From the IMG/VR virus record IMGVR_UViG_3300010399_000058, positions 1 to 38,285 of that record: a DNA stretch of 38,285 nucleotides; one strand, 5' to 3'. The stretch's first letter is position 1. Every line of letters begins with the position of its first letter. Both the position numbers and the translations under genes were made by a program. Shown here one piece after another: positions 6,200 to 38,285 of this stretch. Origin of the DNA: a virus. The notes under the pieces were generated by a model. The model was not told the DNA's origin. It made no database searches and worked only from the letters and a program-made list of their open reading frames with translations.

Positions 6200-6206
6200 T
6201 GTTTTG

Positions 6207-8702
6207 ATGATGGACCCATACCAGAACATCGCACATGCCAACGCTGAACTGAAGGCAGCAGTGGAAGCAGCAGGCTTGGAGTTCAACTGCGGTGCAGGTG
6301 GCAGCGTCAACAGCACCATCGCTGTCGTAGCCGAGGCACCCGGTGAACGTGAAGTGCAGCAGCGCATGCCACTCATCGGCGGCTCAGGCAAGTACCTGTG
6401 GGACATGCTACGCAAGGACAAGCTCACACGCAACGACGTGTACATCACCAACGTCGTCAAGCGCAAGCTGGTGTCAGCGGCTGAGAGCTACGACGTGATG
6501 CCACAGCAGAAGAAGATTACACTCAGCAAGCAGGAGCTTGAGCACTGGCGTCACATCTTGCAGGAGGAACTGGAACGCCTACCGCATGTCGAGTACGTGG
6601 TAGCACTCGGCAACTACGCACTCGAAGCACTCACCTCCTACAGCGGCATCACACAGGTGCGTGGTTCGGTCATCCCCATCATGCTCGGTGACAGGCGCGT
6701 GCAAGTCCTGGCCACGTTCAACCCAGCACACGTCATGCGTGAGCCGCGCATGGAGATCGTGTTCCGCATGGACCTCAACAAGCTGCAACGCTTACTCAAG
6801 GGGACGTTCAGTGTTCCACCTATCCGTGCACACATCAATCCCACCTACACCGAGGCGGTCGATTTCATACGGTATGCACGCACGCTCACTACGCCGCTTG
6901 CCTATGACATTGAGACGATGGCTGGTGAGACAGCATGTGTTGGCTTTGCACCGACCAACGACACAGGCATCTGTATCAACTTTCGTTCACAAGGACAAAA
7001 CCATTACACGCTGGACGAGGAACGCCATATCCGTCTCGAACTACAAGCACTTCTCTCGAACCCTGCGGTGCGGCTCGTTGCCCAGAATGGTCACTACGAT
7101 GCAACGTGGCTCTGGTTCAAAGACCGCATACGTATTCACGCACATTGGTTCGACACGATGCTCGCACATCATTTCCTATACCCAGGACTGCCGCATGATC
7201 TGGGTTTCATCACTGCCCAGTACACGGACCATCCGTACTACAAGGACGACGGCAAGCTGTGGCGCGAGGAGGGAGACATCAACGCCTTCTGGGAGTACAA
7301 CGTAAAGGACTGCTGCATCACACGCATGGCAATGGAGTGCATGCTCAATGAGTTGCAGCAGGCTGGCATGGATGAGCGGTTCTTCAACCACATCATGCGT
7401 CTGCAACCTGAACTGATCGAGATGTCGGTCAACGGAGTGTCAGTCGATGCAAGACTCAAGTCCTCGTTCGCCGATGAACTCGGACGAAGCCTGGAAGCTG
7501 CAAGAGAGCTATGCCAAGTCAAGGCTCGTGTGGCAACTGGCGTTGCTGATTACAACTTCAATCCAAGAAGCAACCAGCAACTCGCTAAGCTCCTCTTTGA
7601 CGACCTACAGTTGGTCGGCAGAGGAAGAAGCACTGATAAGGAGAATCGTGATCGTATTAGACTCCATCCACGGACTAACCCAGCAGCTAGAGACCTTATC
7701 AACGCCGTTGATCGATACATACAAGAGGCCAAGTTTGTATCCACATACGTCAGCGCCGAACCCGACAGCGACGGACGGTGGCGATGCTCCTACAAGCAAA
7801 CCGGCGTCGCCTCCGCTCCCGGACGCTTGAGTAGCTCACAGACGCATTGGGGAACTGGCCTCAACATGCAGAACATACCCGAGAACGCCAAGGGCATGTT
7901 CGTAGCACCCGAGGGCTGGGAGCTCAGCTACTTCGACATGTCACAGATCGAGGCTCGCATAGTTGCGATCCTGGCTGACATCCCTGTGTGGAAGCAGCAG
8001 TTTGAGAACGCACGCTTGCATCCTGGGACGTATGATGCGCATTGTGCACTAGCCAGTGACATGTTCAGGGTAGCCTATGAGCAAGTACCACGACGCGATA
8101 GGGACGAGGAAGGACGCCCGACCATCCGATACGTTGCCAAGCGGTGTCGTCACGGACTCAACTACCGCATGGGACCAGACAAGCTTGCCACAGTCACAGG
8201 CTTGTCACACGTGGAAGCCGAGCAAGCCTACCGTCTCTATCACATGGCGTCTCCACAGGTCACCATGTGGTGGGATGACTTGGTTGCACTCGTCCGCAGG
8301 GACCGTGCTATTACAACTGCCCTCGGACGACGATGGATGCTACTGGAACGCTGGGATGACGCAGCCCTAGACGCCATCGTTGCCTTCGAGCCGCAGTCGA
8401 TCAACGGTGACTGGACCTCATCGGTCATCTATAAGTGTCACGACGACCCCGACTGGCCTCCCACTGCACGGATCGTCATCAACGTCCACGATGCACTGAT
8501 TGCATTGAACCGACACGAGGATGGGCCTACTGTGCGGTCCATCATGAAGCACCATGCAGAGCAGCCCATCTGGATCAACTCGGTGAGCAACCGGCTCGCT
8601 GGGATCGACGCACCGGAGCCACTGATCGTGCCTGCTGAACTCGGTGTGTCACAGCCAGGACCAGACGGTGTGCATCGCTGGTCTACGATAGCCAAAGTAT
8701 GA
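6207..8702 (+). CDS. Family A DNA polymerase with N-terminal uracil-DNA-glycosylase-like domain
   Basis: An 831-residue replicative polymerase (numbered from ATG 6207; a TTG at 6204 has better spacing to AGGAGG 6189-6194). Residues about 35-210 resemble family 4 uracil-DNA glycosylases: Ala-Glu-Ala-Pro-Gly-Glu near the start and Phe-Asn-Pro-Ala-His near the end. Only one cysteine is present, so the usual Fe-S cluster is absent. The 3'-5' exonuclease has Asp234-Ile-Glu236, an Asn-Gly-His-Tyr-Asp motif, and Tyr364 with Asp368. Polymerase motif A is Asp577-Met-Ser-Gln-Ile-Glu582, motif B holds Lys645 and Tyr653, and motif C is Val-His-Asp762-Ala763. Two oddities are His649 at the position of E. 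coli Phe762, and Ala in place of Glu after the motif C Asp. The stop overlaps the methyltransferase start (ATGA). Confidence 0.92.
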   Translation: MMDPYQNIAHANAELKAAVEAAGLEFNCGAGGSVNSTIAVVAEAPGEREVQQRMPLIGGSGKYLWDMLRKDKLTRNDVYITNVVKRKLVSAAESYDVMPQQKKITLSKQELEHWRHILQEELERLPHVEYVVALGNYALEALTSYSGITQVRGSVIPIMLGDRRVQVLATFNPAHVMREPRMEIVFRMDLNKLQRLLKGTFSVPPIRAHINPTYTEAVDFIRYARTLTTPLAYDIETMAGETACVGFAPTNDTGICINFRSQGQNHYTLDEERHIRLELQALLSNPAVRLVAQNGHYDATWLWFKDRIRIHAHWFDTMLAHHFLYPGLPHDLGFITAQYTDHPYYKDDGKLWREEGDINAFWEYNVKDCCITRMAMECMLNELQQAGMDERFFNHIMRLQPELIEMSVNGVSVDARLKSSFADELGRSLEAARELCQVKARVATGVADYNFNPRSNQQLAKLLFDDLQLVGRGRSTDKENRDRIRLHPRTNPAARDLINAVDRYIQEAKFVSTYVSAEPDSDGRWRCSYKQTGVASAPGRLSSSQTHWGTGLNMQNIPENAKGMFVAPEGWELSYFDMSQIEARIVAILADIPVWKQQFENARLHPGTYDAHCALASDMFRVAYEQVPRRDRDEEGRPTIRYVAKRCRHGLNYRMGPDKLATVTGLSHVEAEQAYRLYHMASPQVTMWWDDLVALVRRDRAITTALGRRWMLLERWDDAALDAIVAFEPQSINGDWTSSVIYKCHDDPDWPPTARIVINVHDALIALNRHEDGPTVRSIMKHHAEQPIWINSVSNRLAGIDAPEPLIVPAELGVSQPGPDGVHRWSTIAKV

Positions 8703-33394: not shown

Positions 33395-33559
33395 TCAGAA
33401 CCTCCCACTGAACAGCAGCACCAACAGGATGATCACCACGATGACACCAATGCCACCGAACCCATACGGTCCATAGTGACCACTGTGGTATCCGTAGTAG
33501 CCACCACCGAAGCCAAACACCACAAGCAGGATGATAACCAGTAGCAGGATCAGGCTCAT
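33395..33559 (-). CDS. Small two-helix membrane protein, DUF3309-like (54 aa)
   Basis: A 54-codon gene between TerL and portal. Its ATG overlaps the TerL stop (ATGA). The product has a hydrophobic segment (Leu-Ile-Leu-Leu-Leu-Val-Ile-Ile-Leu-Leu-Val-Val-Phe), a Gly/Tyr/His-rich loop (Gly-Gly-Gly-Tyr-Tyr-Gly-Tyr-His), and a second hydrophobic segment (Ile-Val-Val-Ile-Ile-Leu-Leu-Val-Leu-Leu-Phe). The pattern resembles the DUF3309 family of short membrane proteins. A holin-like or head-assembly membrane role is possible; no lysis gene is visible in the window to compare. Confidence 0.7.
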   Translation of the reverse strand: MSLILLLVIILLVVFGFGGGYYGYHSGHYGPYGFGGIGVIVVIILLVLLFSGRF

Positions 33560-35103
33560 TTGTGCCTCGCCATCTTGCCTTGCCGTTGCATGCGTTCGAT
33601 CTCATGCCACGCCAACCACGCAGGCGGTGCATTCGGCTTACCAACGTAGCGTGCCAACCGTGGCCGCTGACTCATCGCATACTTCCACATGTCCATCGCG
33701 TGGTCGTTGCGGTCCACAGGCTTGTCAGTCGTGTCGTCACTGCCGTCACGCTTGAAGTAGTACTCAACGATCTCGTCCACGAACCACTGACACCGGTCAC
33801 TGACATAGAAGTGCGGCGCATACCGCAGACCAGTGATCGGGTGCTCATGCTGCATCATCGGTGCGAGGTACTGCCAGTTCTTGGCAATGCCACTACTGAT
33901 ATCGTTGTTGCCCCGCTGCGTGCTGATGCCTTCTTCCTGAAACAGTGTGGCTACGGTCTCGCCCACCGAATGTCCACTACCTGTCTTGCGTCGGAATATG
34001 TCGGGGTCAGCGTAGATCGGTCGTAGCTCGTCACCCTCTCCGCAATGCTCAGCACGTATTGTGTGTATACGCCGCGCCGCATCTGCGACGGTAAGCTCTG
34101 CAACACGGAACCCATCGAGCAGAAACACATTGGAGTCGTCGTCAACGTAAAAGAGTCCGTAACAACTGTGCCTTGACAGTCCGTGGTCGTATCCTTCCAC
34201 GAACACAGGCTGAAAGCCGGACAACCGCAGTTGCCGCAGGTGTGTCCGTGCATCTTCATGCGCCACGACATGGACCGCTTCATCGAATTGGGGATAAATA
34301 AGTCCAGACAACGCACCCCATCGTCCGTAGACGAACCGTTCCCGCATAGAGCCAGTGTAAGTTGCAAGCATTCCTCGGATGTAATCGACTCCAACGTTGT
34401 CAACATTCTCGTACGTGCTCCCCTCGAACAACTCGATCAGCGGCTTAGGCTTGCCATCCACCAACACAGGCTTGCCTTCATCGTCCACTTCACACAGCAG
34501 CTTCTCACTGATCACACCGCGCTGATGGAAGTCATGCAGTGGCTTGACGATCTCCCGGTAACACCAGTTGCGTGTCGGGTTGAGCGTCGCCATGAACCAT
34601 CGTGGCCCAACACGCGGCATCTTCGGGTCATCACCGACATACTCAGTGTTGCCACGCAGTCGTCCCATCAGGTCCATGAAGTCCTTATGACTAAACTCGG
34701 GGTCCTCCAACTGATCAACCACGATCCAGTCGTACGTTGCAGACAACAGGTTGCTCTTGCTCTCCTCCGTCTCCTTGCCACGCTGTGCCACATACCGGAA
34801 GTTCACTGTGCTGCCGTTCTTCAGTACCAGCGTGTTCTCATCACGACTCGGCATGCGCTTGATCCACGGTGCAGGACACCACTGCAAGAACTCACGCCTG
34901 ATCGTGTCATTCAGCTTAGGATACGTGCTACGTGCAATCAGTCCATTGCAGCCAGGATAGTCCTTAGCCAACCTGAGAGCCTTGATACAAGCCGCCGCAG
35001 TCTTGCCGTTACCGAACCCACCACCGATGAACTGCACTTTTGCAACCGACTGATGAAATCGGTCATGCATGCCACCTTCGACGATCTTGTACCGCTTACT
35101 CAT
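33556..35103 (-). CDS. terL: Terminase large subunit
   Basis: A 515-residue packaging motor. The ATPase part has Walker A Gly27-Gly-Gly-Phe-Gly-Asn-Gly-Lys34-Thr35 and a Walker B strand Trp-Ile-Val-Val-Asp130-Gln-Leu-Glu133. The residue after the Asp is Gln where many terminases have Glu, with Glu133 two places further on. The C-terminal half is the RNase H-like nuclease, with a conserved Asp in Gly-Tyr-Asp-His-Gly, a second in Tyr-Ala-Asp-Pro-Asp, and a last in Arg-Asn-Asp-His-Ala-Met-Asp. It cuts concatemers and pumps DNA through the portal. The start overlaps the previous stop (TGATG). Confidence 0.93.
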   Translation of the reverse strand: MSKRYKIVEGGMHDRFHQSVAKVQFIGGGFGNGKTAAACIKALRLAKDYPGCNGLIARSTYPKLNDTIRREFLQWCPAPWIKRMPSRDENTLVLKNGSTVNFRYVAQRGKETEESKSNLLSATYDWIVVDQLEDPEFSHKDFMDLMGRLRGNTEYVGDDPKMPRVGPRWFMATLNPTRNWCYREIVKPLHDFHQRGVISEKLLCEVDDEGKPVLVDGKPKPLIELFEGSTYENVDNVGVDYIRGMLATYTGSMRERFVYGRWGALSGLIYPQFDEAVHVVAHEDARTHLRQLRLSGFQPVFVEGYDHGLSRHSCYGLFYVDDDSNVFLLDGFRVAELTVADAARRIHTIRAEHCGEGDELRPIYADPDIFRRKTGSGHSVGETVATLFQEEGISTQRGNNDISSGIAKNWQYLAPMMQHEHPITGLRYAPHFYVSDRCQWFVDEIVEYYFKRDGSDDTTDKPVDRNDHAMDMWKYAMSQRPRLARYVGKPNAPPAWLAWHEIERMQRQGKMARHK

Positions 35104-35366
35104 CAGTTGTCTTTGCCAAGCAGCATGGTCGATGCAGCCGTGGCAGTGACAGCAGTGGCACCGGGTGGGATGGCAACCACACTGTCAGTGCTGACAGGGA
35201 TGACCAACACCACACCGTTGTCCCACGTATACGTCGTACCACCGGGCACACGTGCATGCGAGTACATCGTCCTGTTGCCGTGCACACCACTCACATCAAC
35301 AGCAGCAGGCAACGCCACCTTCACACCCGCACCAAGCGTCAACGCCTGTCCAGCAACGAACGCCAT
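35103..35366 (-). CDS. Small unknown protein between the terminase subunits (87 aa)
   Basis: The ATG at 35366 overlaps the TerS stop (TGATG); a GTG one codon earlier is the only alternative. The product is Ala/Val/Thr/Gly-rich, with strands such as Val-Leu-Val-Ile-Pro-Val-Ser-Thr-Asp-Ser-Val-Val-Ala-Ile. It is probably a small beta-rich virion or assembly protein. It has similar character to the beta-rich 153-residue fibre accessory. Function unknown. Confidence 0.6.
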   Translation of the reverse strand: MAFVAGQALTLGAGVKVALPAAVDVSGVHGNRTMYSHARVPGGTTYTWDNGVVLVIPVSTDSVVAIPPGATAVTATAASTMLLGKDN

Positions 35367-35959
35367 CACACCTCTCCCATGTCAATGGTCGGCACCTCAG
35401 CCATGTCACGCTTTACAATCTCGATAACCAGACCACCATCCATTCGATGGCGATGCTCCACCACATCAGCAGCCCGATGACCACTGCGGTCCAGAATGTC
35501 ACGAGCGGCAGCGATCCTATCGCCGCGCGTCCCTTCGTTGAGCGCAGCAACCATAACCTGCGCCGCATCATGCGCCTTGCGTTGTAACAGGTCTCGTACA
35601 ACACCCGTCTCAGCATCGAGTACACTCCGCACAACGGCGTCGTGCATCTGTGTGAACGGGTCAGACACCTTGATGCGACCGATCTGGTCAACACTTAGGC
35701 CAGTAGCGATTGCAATCTCATCATCAGCCAACCCGAACAGCGTGTAACTCAGCACGACACCCACTGCATTCATCGTGCGTGGGACTTCGGGTAACTCACT
35801 CAGCTTCCTACGTGTCTGCGTGACGATCCGCTGTGCCTCTCGTTGCGTCGGCACTTCGATGAACTCATCCTCACGTCCATCACGCAACACGCGACCACCA
35901 GGATACACAAGTCTCCCATCCGCTAACCGAAGCGGCTCACCAGGTTCAGCCAACGACAT
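35366..35959 (-). CDS. terS: Terminase small subunit (putative)
   Basis: A 197-residue protein two genes upstream of TerL. It has a helix-turn-helix-like segment (Asp-Asp-Glu-Ile-Ala-Ile-Ala-Thr-Gly-Leu-Ser-Val-Asp-Gln-Ile). The C-terminal half has Ala-Ala-Arg-Asp-Ile-Leu-Asp-Arg-Ser-Gly-His-Arg, a phrase characteristic of phage small terminase subunits, followed by a hydrophobic strand. It would bind phage DNA to start packaging. The start lies one base after the previous stop. Confidence 0.75.
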   Translation of the reverse strand: MSLAEPGEPLRLADGRLVYPGGRVLRDGREDEFIEVPTQREAQRIVTQTRRKLSELPEVPRTMNAVGVVLSYTLFGLADDEIAIATGLSVDQIGRIKVSDPFTQMHDAVVRSVLDAETGVVRDLLQRKAHDAAQVMVAALNEGTRGDRIAAARDILDRSGHRAADVVEHRHRMDGGLVIEIVKRDMAEVPTIDMGEV

Positions 35960-36827: not shown

Positions 36828-37104
36828 TGGCTTGCCTCCGTGCAAGGATTGCGTGTGCGATACCAGCAGCCGCATTCACATGGTGTGCATCAGGTGGACC
36901 ACCTCCACCACCCATCGGTGGCTGCATCGGTTGCGGTGGCGGACCTTGATCCTGCGGTGTCGGTGCAGGCCGTTGCGGTGCAGGTTGCTTAGGCTTACCA
37001 CCACCTGCCTGAAACGGACGTGGCTTACCAGTGCCAGGAGCCTTCCTCGGCACAGCACTACCCTGCATCGAGGACTTGATCTCACTGTCAAACTTGCCTG
37101 CCAT
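36808..37104 (-). CDS. Pro/Gln/Gly-rich unknown protein (98 aa)
   Basis: The start overlaps the first gene's stop by one base (TGATG). The middle is a low-complexity Pro/Gln/Gly segment (Gln-Pro-Ala-Pro-Gln-Arg-Pro-Ala-Pro-Thr-Pro, then Met-Gly-Gly-Gly-Gly-Gly-Pro-Pro), with short helical ends. The C-terminus (Ala-Ala-Gly-Ile-Ala-His-Ala-Ile-Leu-Ala-Arg) is the only ordered-looking part. Function unknown. Confidence 0.55.
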   Translation of the reverse strand: MAGKFDSEIKSSMQGSAVPRKAPGTGKPRPFQAGGGKPKQPAPQRPAPTPQDQGPPPQPMQPPMGGGGGPPDAHHVNAAAGIAHAILARRQANAGPGY

Positions 37105-37532
37105 CAGTAAGTCACCTTCCCACCACCACCATTACCACTGAGATCGGCAGGATACGTGGACGGATACACAACACGGTCCAACAGACCAAGTATTGCAGTG
37201 CGATCAGCGGCAGTCGTTACTCGGTTGACGAGGTTGATGGTTTCAATCGGCACCACACCACCGGGGGCACCCTGCACATGTTGTACCTGTGCCTTCGTTG
37301 CAGTAGCCGTCCCGCCAGCAGCCGCACCAGTGAGTGCGCGCCACAACGCACGCAGCACTTTGGCACTACCACCAGCCTGTAACAGCTTGGCCATCGCATC
37401 ATCGGACTGATTGATGCCGTTCTTGTACACATACCCAACAGTCGCAGGCTGATTGGCGTCACCACTGCCGAGCGTGTTCGAGTAACCAGTGAATGGGATT
37501 TGGGTCGAGCCGCTGAGGCTGTAATTGGCCAT
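37104..37532 (-). CDS. Unknown protein, first gene of the leftward operon (142 aa)
   Basis: The first gene of the leftward late operon, with GGAGG upstream of its ATG at 37532. The product is Gly/Ala/Thr/Asn-rich, with Ser-Gly-Ser-Thr near the start and a Gly-rich end (Gly-Asn-Gly-Gly-Gly-Gly-Lys-Val-Thr-Tyr). A helical central part holds Leu-Arg-Ala-Leu-Trp-Arg-Ala-Leu. It is probably a virion protein. The start is about 93 bases downstream of the left copy of the inverted control element. Confidence 0.6.
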   Translation of the reverse strand: MANYSLSGSTQIPFTGYSNTLGSGDANQPATVGYVYKNGINQSDDAMAKLLQAGGSAKVLRALWRALTGAAAGGTATATKAQVQHVQGAPGGVVPIETINLVNRVTTAADRTAILGLLDRVVYPSTYPADLSGNGGGGKVTY

Positions 37533-37624
37533 CGTGATCCTCCATCCTGACTAGGAGAGCATGCACGCTATACCCCACCACAGCAATCAGCAACCATAAT
37601 CAGCAGACGTGGCGCATCTCCTGT

Positions 37625-37657
37625 TAGAAAACTGAACCGCCCCCCTATATGTATATA
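37625..37657 (-). promoter_or_regulatory. Left copy of outward-facing control element (candidate promoter)
   Basis: Bases 37625-37641 match the reverse complement of 38091-38107 at 15 of 17 positions, and the likeness continues to 37657 (26 of 33 overall). Read on the minus strand it runs TATATA, a C/G-rich block, then CGGTTCAGTTTTCTA, pointing toward the first late gene at 37532. This is the expected place for a leftward late promoter. It does not match a sigma-70 pattern, so a phage-specific or unusual polymerase or regulator may be needed. Confidence 0.45.
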
Positions 37658-37775
37658 TACGTAAGCAGTGCTACGATGCGTTGCGGGGTTGTTTTGTGTT
37701 GTGTCCAAGGTGCGCCACGCCCTCGCTGGCACACGTGAACACCCCCGTTTTGGATTTGGCATGGGGGAGTGGGGG

Positions 37776-37843
37776 GCGTATACACACACGCATGCATGTA
37801 TACACACCACGTATGTACATACACATGCACATACACGCGTGTA
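37776..37843. other. Alternating purine-pyrimidine (Z-DNA-prone) tract
   Basis: Bases 37776-37807 alternate purine and pyrimidine at every position (32 nt), then 37808-37843 do so again (36 nt) after one break (CC). Further perfect runs occur at 37854-37869, 37871-37897 and 37910-37924. Such tracts favour left-handed DNA under negative supercoiling and melt easily at TA steps. It lies centrally in the only long non-coding region of the window. Confidence 0.8.
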
Positions 37844-38085
37844 GCCACACACTCGTATATACGTGCGTAGGTACACACACATGTATACACACACGTGAGT
37901 ACACACAGCCGTATACACATGCGTCTGTATACACAGCGTGTAGATACAGGCAAGGGGACGCGCGTGGTTGTATGCACAAGCGGTTCTATGCACAAGCGTG
38001 GTTGTATGCACATGCACAAGCGCATGGCCAGGCATATGTATACACACGCAACGACTGCGGTTGTAGTAAGCTGGTATATACACAC
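37778..38085. repeat. GTATACACA iteron-like repeats
   Basis: Copies of GTATACACA followed by C, T or G occur at 37778, 37798, 37883, 37911, 37927 and 38038. Variants are GTACACACAC (37871), GTACACACAG (37899) and GTATATACACAC (38074). They are spaced irregularly from 16 to 111 bases apart. This is compatible with protein-binding iterons in an origin or promoter region, or with drift of a simple repeat. Confidence 0.65.
37962..38022. repeat. 17-bp direct repeat and ATGCACAAGCG triplet
   Basis: GCGTGGTTGTATGCACA occurs exactly at 37962-37978 and 37996-38012. ATGCACAAGCG occurs three times: inside 37971-37982, inside 37987-37998, and at 38012-38022. These lie between the GTATACACA repeats and the right control element. 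Confidence 0.65.
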
Positions 38086-38107
38086 TCGGGGTCGGTTCAA
38101 TTTTCTA
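38075..38107 (+). promoter_or_regulatory. Right copy of outward-facing control element (candidate promoter)
   Basis: The mirror copy of the element at 37625-37657, reading TATATA, a GGGG block, then CGGTTCAATTTTCTA on the plus strand and pointing out of the window. Together the two copies bracket the alternating tract like a divergent promoter pair. No gene is seen downstream within the remaining 178 bases. Confidence 0.45.
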
Positions 38108-38228
38108 GTGTGAGATTGTGCACACCCGACCACGCTCATGTGCACTCGGTTGCATACGCCACAACCACACACTCATTACGCTGCTGTGTATCTACATGAC
38201 ATGCACACCGTGCCGCTGTGAGCGTGCT

Positions 38229-38271
38229 GTGGCATGGCATGCGCTGGCTGGTACCGTGGCATGGCACGCGC
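38229..38271. repeat. 16-bp near-perfect direct repeat at the right edge
   Basis: GTGGCATGGCATGCGC at 38229-38244 recurs as GTGGCATGGCACGCGC at 38256-38271 (15 of 16). The rest of 38108-38285 is GTGCAC- and CACA-rich with no start codon and ribosome-site pair that I can support. Confidence 0.5.
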
Positions 38272-38285
38272 GACACCGTGCTGTA

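Follow-up and report, generated by a model that had tools for sequence, protein, structure and literature searches.

An alternating purine-pyrimidine tract opens a putative protein-binding repeat array beside a conserved G-rich core in the divergent control region of an uncultured phage

The alternating tract and its genomic setting

What could explain a stretch of non-coding phage DNA in which purines and pyrimidines alternate almost without interruption? The window (the whole 38,285-nucleotide stretch analysed, IMG/VR record IMGVR_UViG_3300010399_000058, classed there as linear without end repeats) is an uncultured phage genome that stops within its own divergent intergenic region. Near its right end, 68 bases alternate (37776-37843) with a single break at 37807, and the unbroken runs at 37776-37807 (32 bases), 37808-37843 (36) and 37871-37897 (27) are the top three in the 38 kb. 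Alternation reaches 91% over 37776-37936, against a genome mean of 58%, and 91.3% in the 160-base window at 37781, where 160-base windows of the genome have a mean of 57.8% and a standard deviation of 4.6%. In 120 order-1 Markov versions of the whole window, matched in dinucleotide content, the maxima were 36 for a one-break run and 0.744 for the best 160-base window, compared with the observed 68 and 0.913. The initial annotation, which had reported the 68-base alternation and further long runs, was thus confirmed, both lying well beyond chance.

The replication genes are on the + strand, up to 10660 (exonuclease, Sak4-like annealing protein, RecD/Dda-like helicase, uracil-DNA-glycosylase-like plus family A polymerase, and DUF3987 helicase/primase). 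The structural genes (TerL, portal, capsid and tail) are on the - strand from 37532 downwards, with TerL at 33556-35103 and a weak TerS match at 35366-35959. Four contigs are near-identical to the window (L002, L003, L006 and L007) and many others have 74-84% TerL identity. L007 and L003 extend well beyond the window's end, and L007 carries the whole intergenic region, which spans about 1.03 kb from the leftward structural arm to the rightward early genes, so that the tract was rightly placed in non-coding DNA between divergent elements. The features of the region are as follows.

37104..37532, - strand: first gene of the leftward structural arm, 142 aa, function not assigned; left border of the control region (ORF list)
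37533..38285, no strand: within-window portion of the ~1.03-kb divergent intergenic region, the remainder up to the early gene being seen in L007
37640..37663, - strand: conserved TATA element, leftward reading GTATATA-n-GGGG in relatives (pattern and opening peak)
37700..37721, + strand: conserved block TGTGTCCAAGGTGCGCCACGCC upstream of the core (alignments)
37741..37777, + strand: single-copy, deeply conserved G-rich core, ACCCCCGTTTTGGATTTGGCATGGGGGAGTGGGGGGC (nhmmer and pattern matches in relatives)
37776..37936, no strand: alternating tract, opening of the hypervariable repeat array (run counts, simulations)
37778..38195, mostly + strand: 15 GTAKNYAC octamers (GTATACAC, GTATATAC, GTAGATAC and similar), starting at 37778, 37798, 37811, 37841, 37855, 37867, 37883, 37911, 37927, 37940, 37970, 38004, 38038, 38074 and 38188 (motif counts)
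37962..38012, + strand: tandem repeat with a 16-18 bp unit, GCGTGGTTGTATGCACAA, 2.9 copies (repeat search)

The 142-aa product is 100% identical in L082 (the L002 contig), L003, L083 (the L006 contig) and L007, and 56% identical in L084-L086. Three ORFs of 171-175 aa cross the array within 37568-38199, on both strands, apparently owing to few stop codons in the repeats. A coding role for them is not credible, since the window and L007, near-identical phages, differ in length by 38 bp here, which disrupts the frames; the stretch that is 38 bp shorter in near-identical relatives is the one holding the 37962-38012 repeat.

By DNA, no cultured relatives were found among phages or plasmids, with four short repeat-like matches only (E = 3). 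PLSDB plasmids showed no DNA similarity to the region, and no bacterial genomes carrying a related terminase were found. An annotated uncultured phage from Manatee Spring (MW202489.1), similar in gene content, shares the divergent layout, with a polymerase ~27% and a capsid protein ~25% identical; unlike in the window phage, its short divergent region has neither core nor array.

Conservation of the core and turnover of the array

The tract begins where the G-rich core ends, the latter having the pattern ACCCCC-n-TTTTGG-n-GGGGGA-n-GGGGGGC. With a profile built from 11 relatives and run on TerL loci, nhmmer and pattern searches put the core at the equivalent position in 40 TerL loci. Of the 35 loci that extend over 3.6 kb upstream of TerL, 29 have it; the remaining six, without a match, may stop short of the junction, L071/G004 among them breaking off at a TATA element like those found ahead of the core. 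Long contigs carry it once, between the structural and early arms (G001, G002, G003, G005, G006 and G013). When all viral contigs were searched for the pattern, the core also turned up in L110, L115, L116 and L118, including distant phages with TerL identities of 47% (L115) and 50% (L118, whose right-hand arm lies past the contig end). Further pattern matches in L113, L114 and L117 were taken as chance, as alternation is not raised there and the fetched stretch holds no related terminase, polymerase or capsid gene. The G4Hunter value of the core, 2.08, is the highest in the genome, and a G-quadruplex on the + strand is possible. A structured RNA element was rejected, RNAalifold on 12 sequences giving 0 conserved pairs in the core and Rfam having no match within the window.

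When close relatives are compared, fewer changes are usually seen in the 150 bases ending at the core than in coding DNA, and mostly far more in the 400 bases after it, with no fast array turnover in L019/L022/L084 nor in the identical L035/L116. For example, L033 and L024 match at 146 of 150 core bases and at 32 of 55 in the adjacent tract, with ~88% in the structural arm; L056 and L057 match at 149 of 150 in the core and have 281 matches against 109 substitutions in the tract; and the window and L007, identical over 150 core bases, are separated in the tract by 21 substitutions and 76 gap columns. The initial annotation took a tract varying in length, or absent, among close relatives, like an ordinary slippage microsatellite, to count against its reading. 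This applies in part: the sequence just beyond the tract varies in length between near-identical phages and more distant relatives carry replaced sequence, but alternation stays raised and the 68-base run keeps its length in L002, L003, L006 and L007, with transitions only (two in L007). A slippage microsatellite with a uniform 1-3-base unit was rejected on that constancy in near-identical contigs and on the mixed steps of the tract.

Over the first 200 bases past the core, mean alternation is 0.70 in 26 relatives (rows that are not independent, several relatives being near-copies), whereas the left flank has 0.57 and the structural arm 0.56; masking the octamers still leaves 0.69 against 0.56. 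Alternation is raised next to the core in nearly all relatives, the distant L118 being at background (0.558). As alternation stays raised while the sequence changes, it reflects a regional bias, strongest in this clade, and not the retention of an exact sequence. The eye-catching tract is thus the variable part; conservation lies in the less conspicuous G-rich block alongside, probably the more important element.

A control region and candidate origin

GTATAYAC occurs 12 times in the whole window (1.2 expected), 10 of the 12 inside 37778-38195. In the arrays of 30 relatives, octamers of this type were seen 77 times against 6.1 expected, 12-fold beyond dinucleotide content, and TGTAKAYACA-type sites 43 times against 1.25. 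They are present in the window, L007, L040, L052, L010, L053/L056/L057, L038, L011, L023 and L073; clear repeats of this kind are absent in some relatives (e.g. L046, L069 and L009), and other arrays have ATGCAT/GCATGC-like words or nothing obvious. Being missing in some relatives, GTATAYAC is therefore not essential group-wide, unless the motif changes along with its protein. In the window the octamers are irregularly spaced, mostly by 12-36 bp, and by inspection show no 10.5-bp rhythm.

The initial annotation had expected the tract itself to unwind easily. Our strand-opening calculation (a one-run model, with assumed copolymer energies and nucleation cost) instead opens, in the window and L007, the TATA element at 37640-37663, at a distance of about 120 bp from the end of the core; in both, the opening probability of the array at sigma -0.055 is much lower. 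At the same sigma the peak lies at or near the corresponding place (-121 to -191) in L056, L046 and L050, and elsewhere in L040 and L026. Under a loose pattern, a TATA element is found ahead of the core in 33 of 40 sequences, and it is possibly a leftward promoter. Beyond the array, a sigma-70-type TTGAC-N17-TAnnnT is found in 14 of 21 relatives, with N19 in three more including L007, and L046 has a perfect TTGACA-N17-TATAAT.

Tentatively, and on sequence evidence, we favour the reading in which the tract is the start of a putative protein-binding repeat array (GTATAYAC / GTAKNYAC) in the single divergent origin/early-control region of the phage. Given its layout (opening element, core, array, early promoter, one copy per genome) and its conservation, the region is best read as a control region and candidate origin. 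A phage-encoded protein would bind the repeats cooperatively and fold the DNA, the flexible pyrimidine-purine steps at every second base of alternating sequence making this easier; the bound array and the conserved core might then direct opening at the neighbouring TATA element, and the opened region could both act as replication origin and control the early promoter past the array. The anatomy, core conservation, repeat enrichment, array turnover and promoter match were observed directly; protein binding, bending and the origin role are what we infer. The alternation would then come from the make-up of the repeats and the region-wide bias, and not from a Z-DNA switch.

Ori-lambda (PMC5043065) and iteron plasmid origins (PMC10797057) combine iterons with an AT-rich element and a promoter close by. 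As in such origins, short sites are repeated above chance here (77 against 6.1 in relatives; 12 against 1.2 in the window) and an easily opened AT-rich element is adjacent (window and L007); phasing of the repeats with the DNA helix was not seen in the window by inspection. With ori-lambda (O-protein iterons, A+T-rich element, transcriptional activation from PR) the region shares a repeat array, a separate AT-rich opening element and a nearby early promoter. It differs in that the array lies in a non-coding divergent junction and not within an initiator gene, the repeats, of 8-10 bp, follow no regular spacing, there is an additional single-copy G-rich core and no O-like gene was recognised. 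The plasmid iteron origins of RK2, P1, R6K and pSC101 likewise have short, mostly one-directional repeats near an AT-rich element, whereas here neither phasing, a Rep protein nor PLSDB similarity was found. The first early genes vary between relatives; those tried had no Pfam or PHROG match, and no initiator-like gene was recognised. GC skew showed no sign change marking a bidirectional origin, a measure confounded by coding-strand bias, and within the literature covered, nothing matching was found on tracts of alternating purines and pyrimidines at the origins of phages.

The nearest rival to the origin/control reading is a purely transcriptional role, in which the array would consist of operators for a phage regulator timing the rightward early promoter relative to the leftward structural one, and the region would not act as an origin. 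We consider it unlikely, although the array is suitably placed, with a leftward TATA-type promoter-like element on one side and a strong rightward sigma-70-type promoter on the other, and the role is also in keeping with the lineage-specific repeats, as operators would be expected to change together with their regulator, and with a dispersed 16-bp palindrome in the window clade (GTCAACACGTGTTGAC), of which one copy is in the intergenic region of L007. However, the array is at least 150 bp long and often stops hundreds of bp before the early -35 box, and no regulator gene was recognised. Promoters are usually less strongly conserved than this single-copy core, and we know of no promoter element that resembles it.

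Somewhat less probable still is that the array is neutral repeat DNA, a spacer made by local duplication and replication slippage beside a functional core, with alternation a by-product of CA/TG/TA-rich units. Nested tandem periods of 14, 28 and 56 bp, the 16-18-bp repeat with its 38-bp length difference in near-identical phages, the replacement of array sequence between close relatives and the ending of about half of the contigs in the array all agree with this. But neutral duplication does not readily account for alternation that is raised by the core in nearly all relatives despite their differing sequence and with the octamers masked, nor for the 12-fold excess of octamers over dinucleotide expectation.

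A shade more doubtful, to judge from the sequence, is an undescribed type of phage replicator, in which a G-rich core, possibly forming a quadruplex, would be joined to an array selected for alternation or flexibility with its base sequence left free. The analysis points to a probable control centre and candidate origin for a phage group known here only from metagenome contigs, and the 37-base core provides a signal by which such a region can be recognised and tested.

Packaging and Z-DNA

A packaging site (cos or pac), with the core as cut site and the array as binding sites for the small terminase subunit, is improbable. In lambda, cosN has the cosB repeats adjacent to it, and here too repeats adjoin a conserved core, and both lie upstream of the genes for the small and large terminase subunits. 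Unlike in a lambda-type cos region, no contig ends at the core and the distance to the terminase varies, from ~2.6 to ~6 kb between core and TerL, and many contigs run through the region. About half of the contigs end 52-570 bases past the core, at differing places and never inside it; assembled contig ends are weak evidence on virion ends, and these look like assembly failures in a variable repeat. Both ends of G001 (45.5 kb) lie inside the array, and the 13-bp gap between them is bridged by L046. On these contig ends, the core does not look like a cos site or a physical end of the genome, and the packaging signal raised by the initial annotation draws no support from the contig ends.

Least probable of all is a supercoiling-sensitive switch, in which the tract would turn to Z-DNA or unwind, sensing torsion between the two transcribed arms: among the 12 24-base windows of lowest Z energy in the genome, four overlap 37776-37897, in L007 at sigma -0.05 the tract is where Z-DNA is favoured within its own 5-kb domain, and raised alternation is retained as the sequence changes, but 36 of the 160 steps of the tract are costly TA/AT steps, the Z onset peak lies outside the array in six of nine domains tested, and strand opening is predicted at the TATA element. 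Using published B-Z dinucleotide energies (PMC3024258) in a one-run model, with an assumed 0.8-turn junction untwisting, the tract-bearing 5-kb slice reached 50% Z at sigma -0.04, no earlier than tract-free slices of the same genome (-0.04 to -0.0425), and Z-DNA as a special property of the tract was not borne out.

Elsewhere in the genome, the family A DNA polymerase at 6204-8702 has an N-terminal uracil-DNA-glycosylase-like domain (Pfam UDG, residues 33-183); its PHROG 17 match spans residues 36-783, and the arrangement is therefore probably not unique. The 16-bp palindrome GTCAACACGTGTTGAC, allowing up to three mismatches, occurs nine times in the window (at 2, 1579, 3649, 10063, 14218, 19009, 21589, 28731 and 36594) against 0.63 expected and a maximum of three in 100 shuffles. 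There are seven copies in the 11-kb L007, including its intergenic region and early genes, and 0-2 in G001-G006 and G013, so distributed that it looks like a dispersed operator or partition-like site particular to the lineage.
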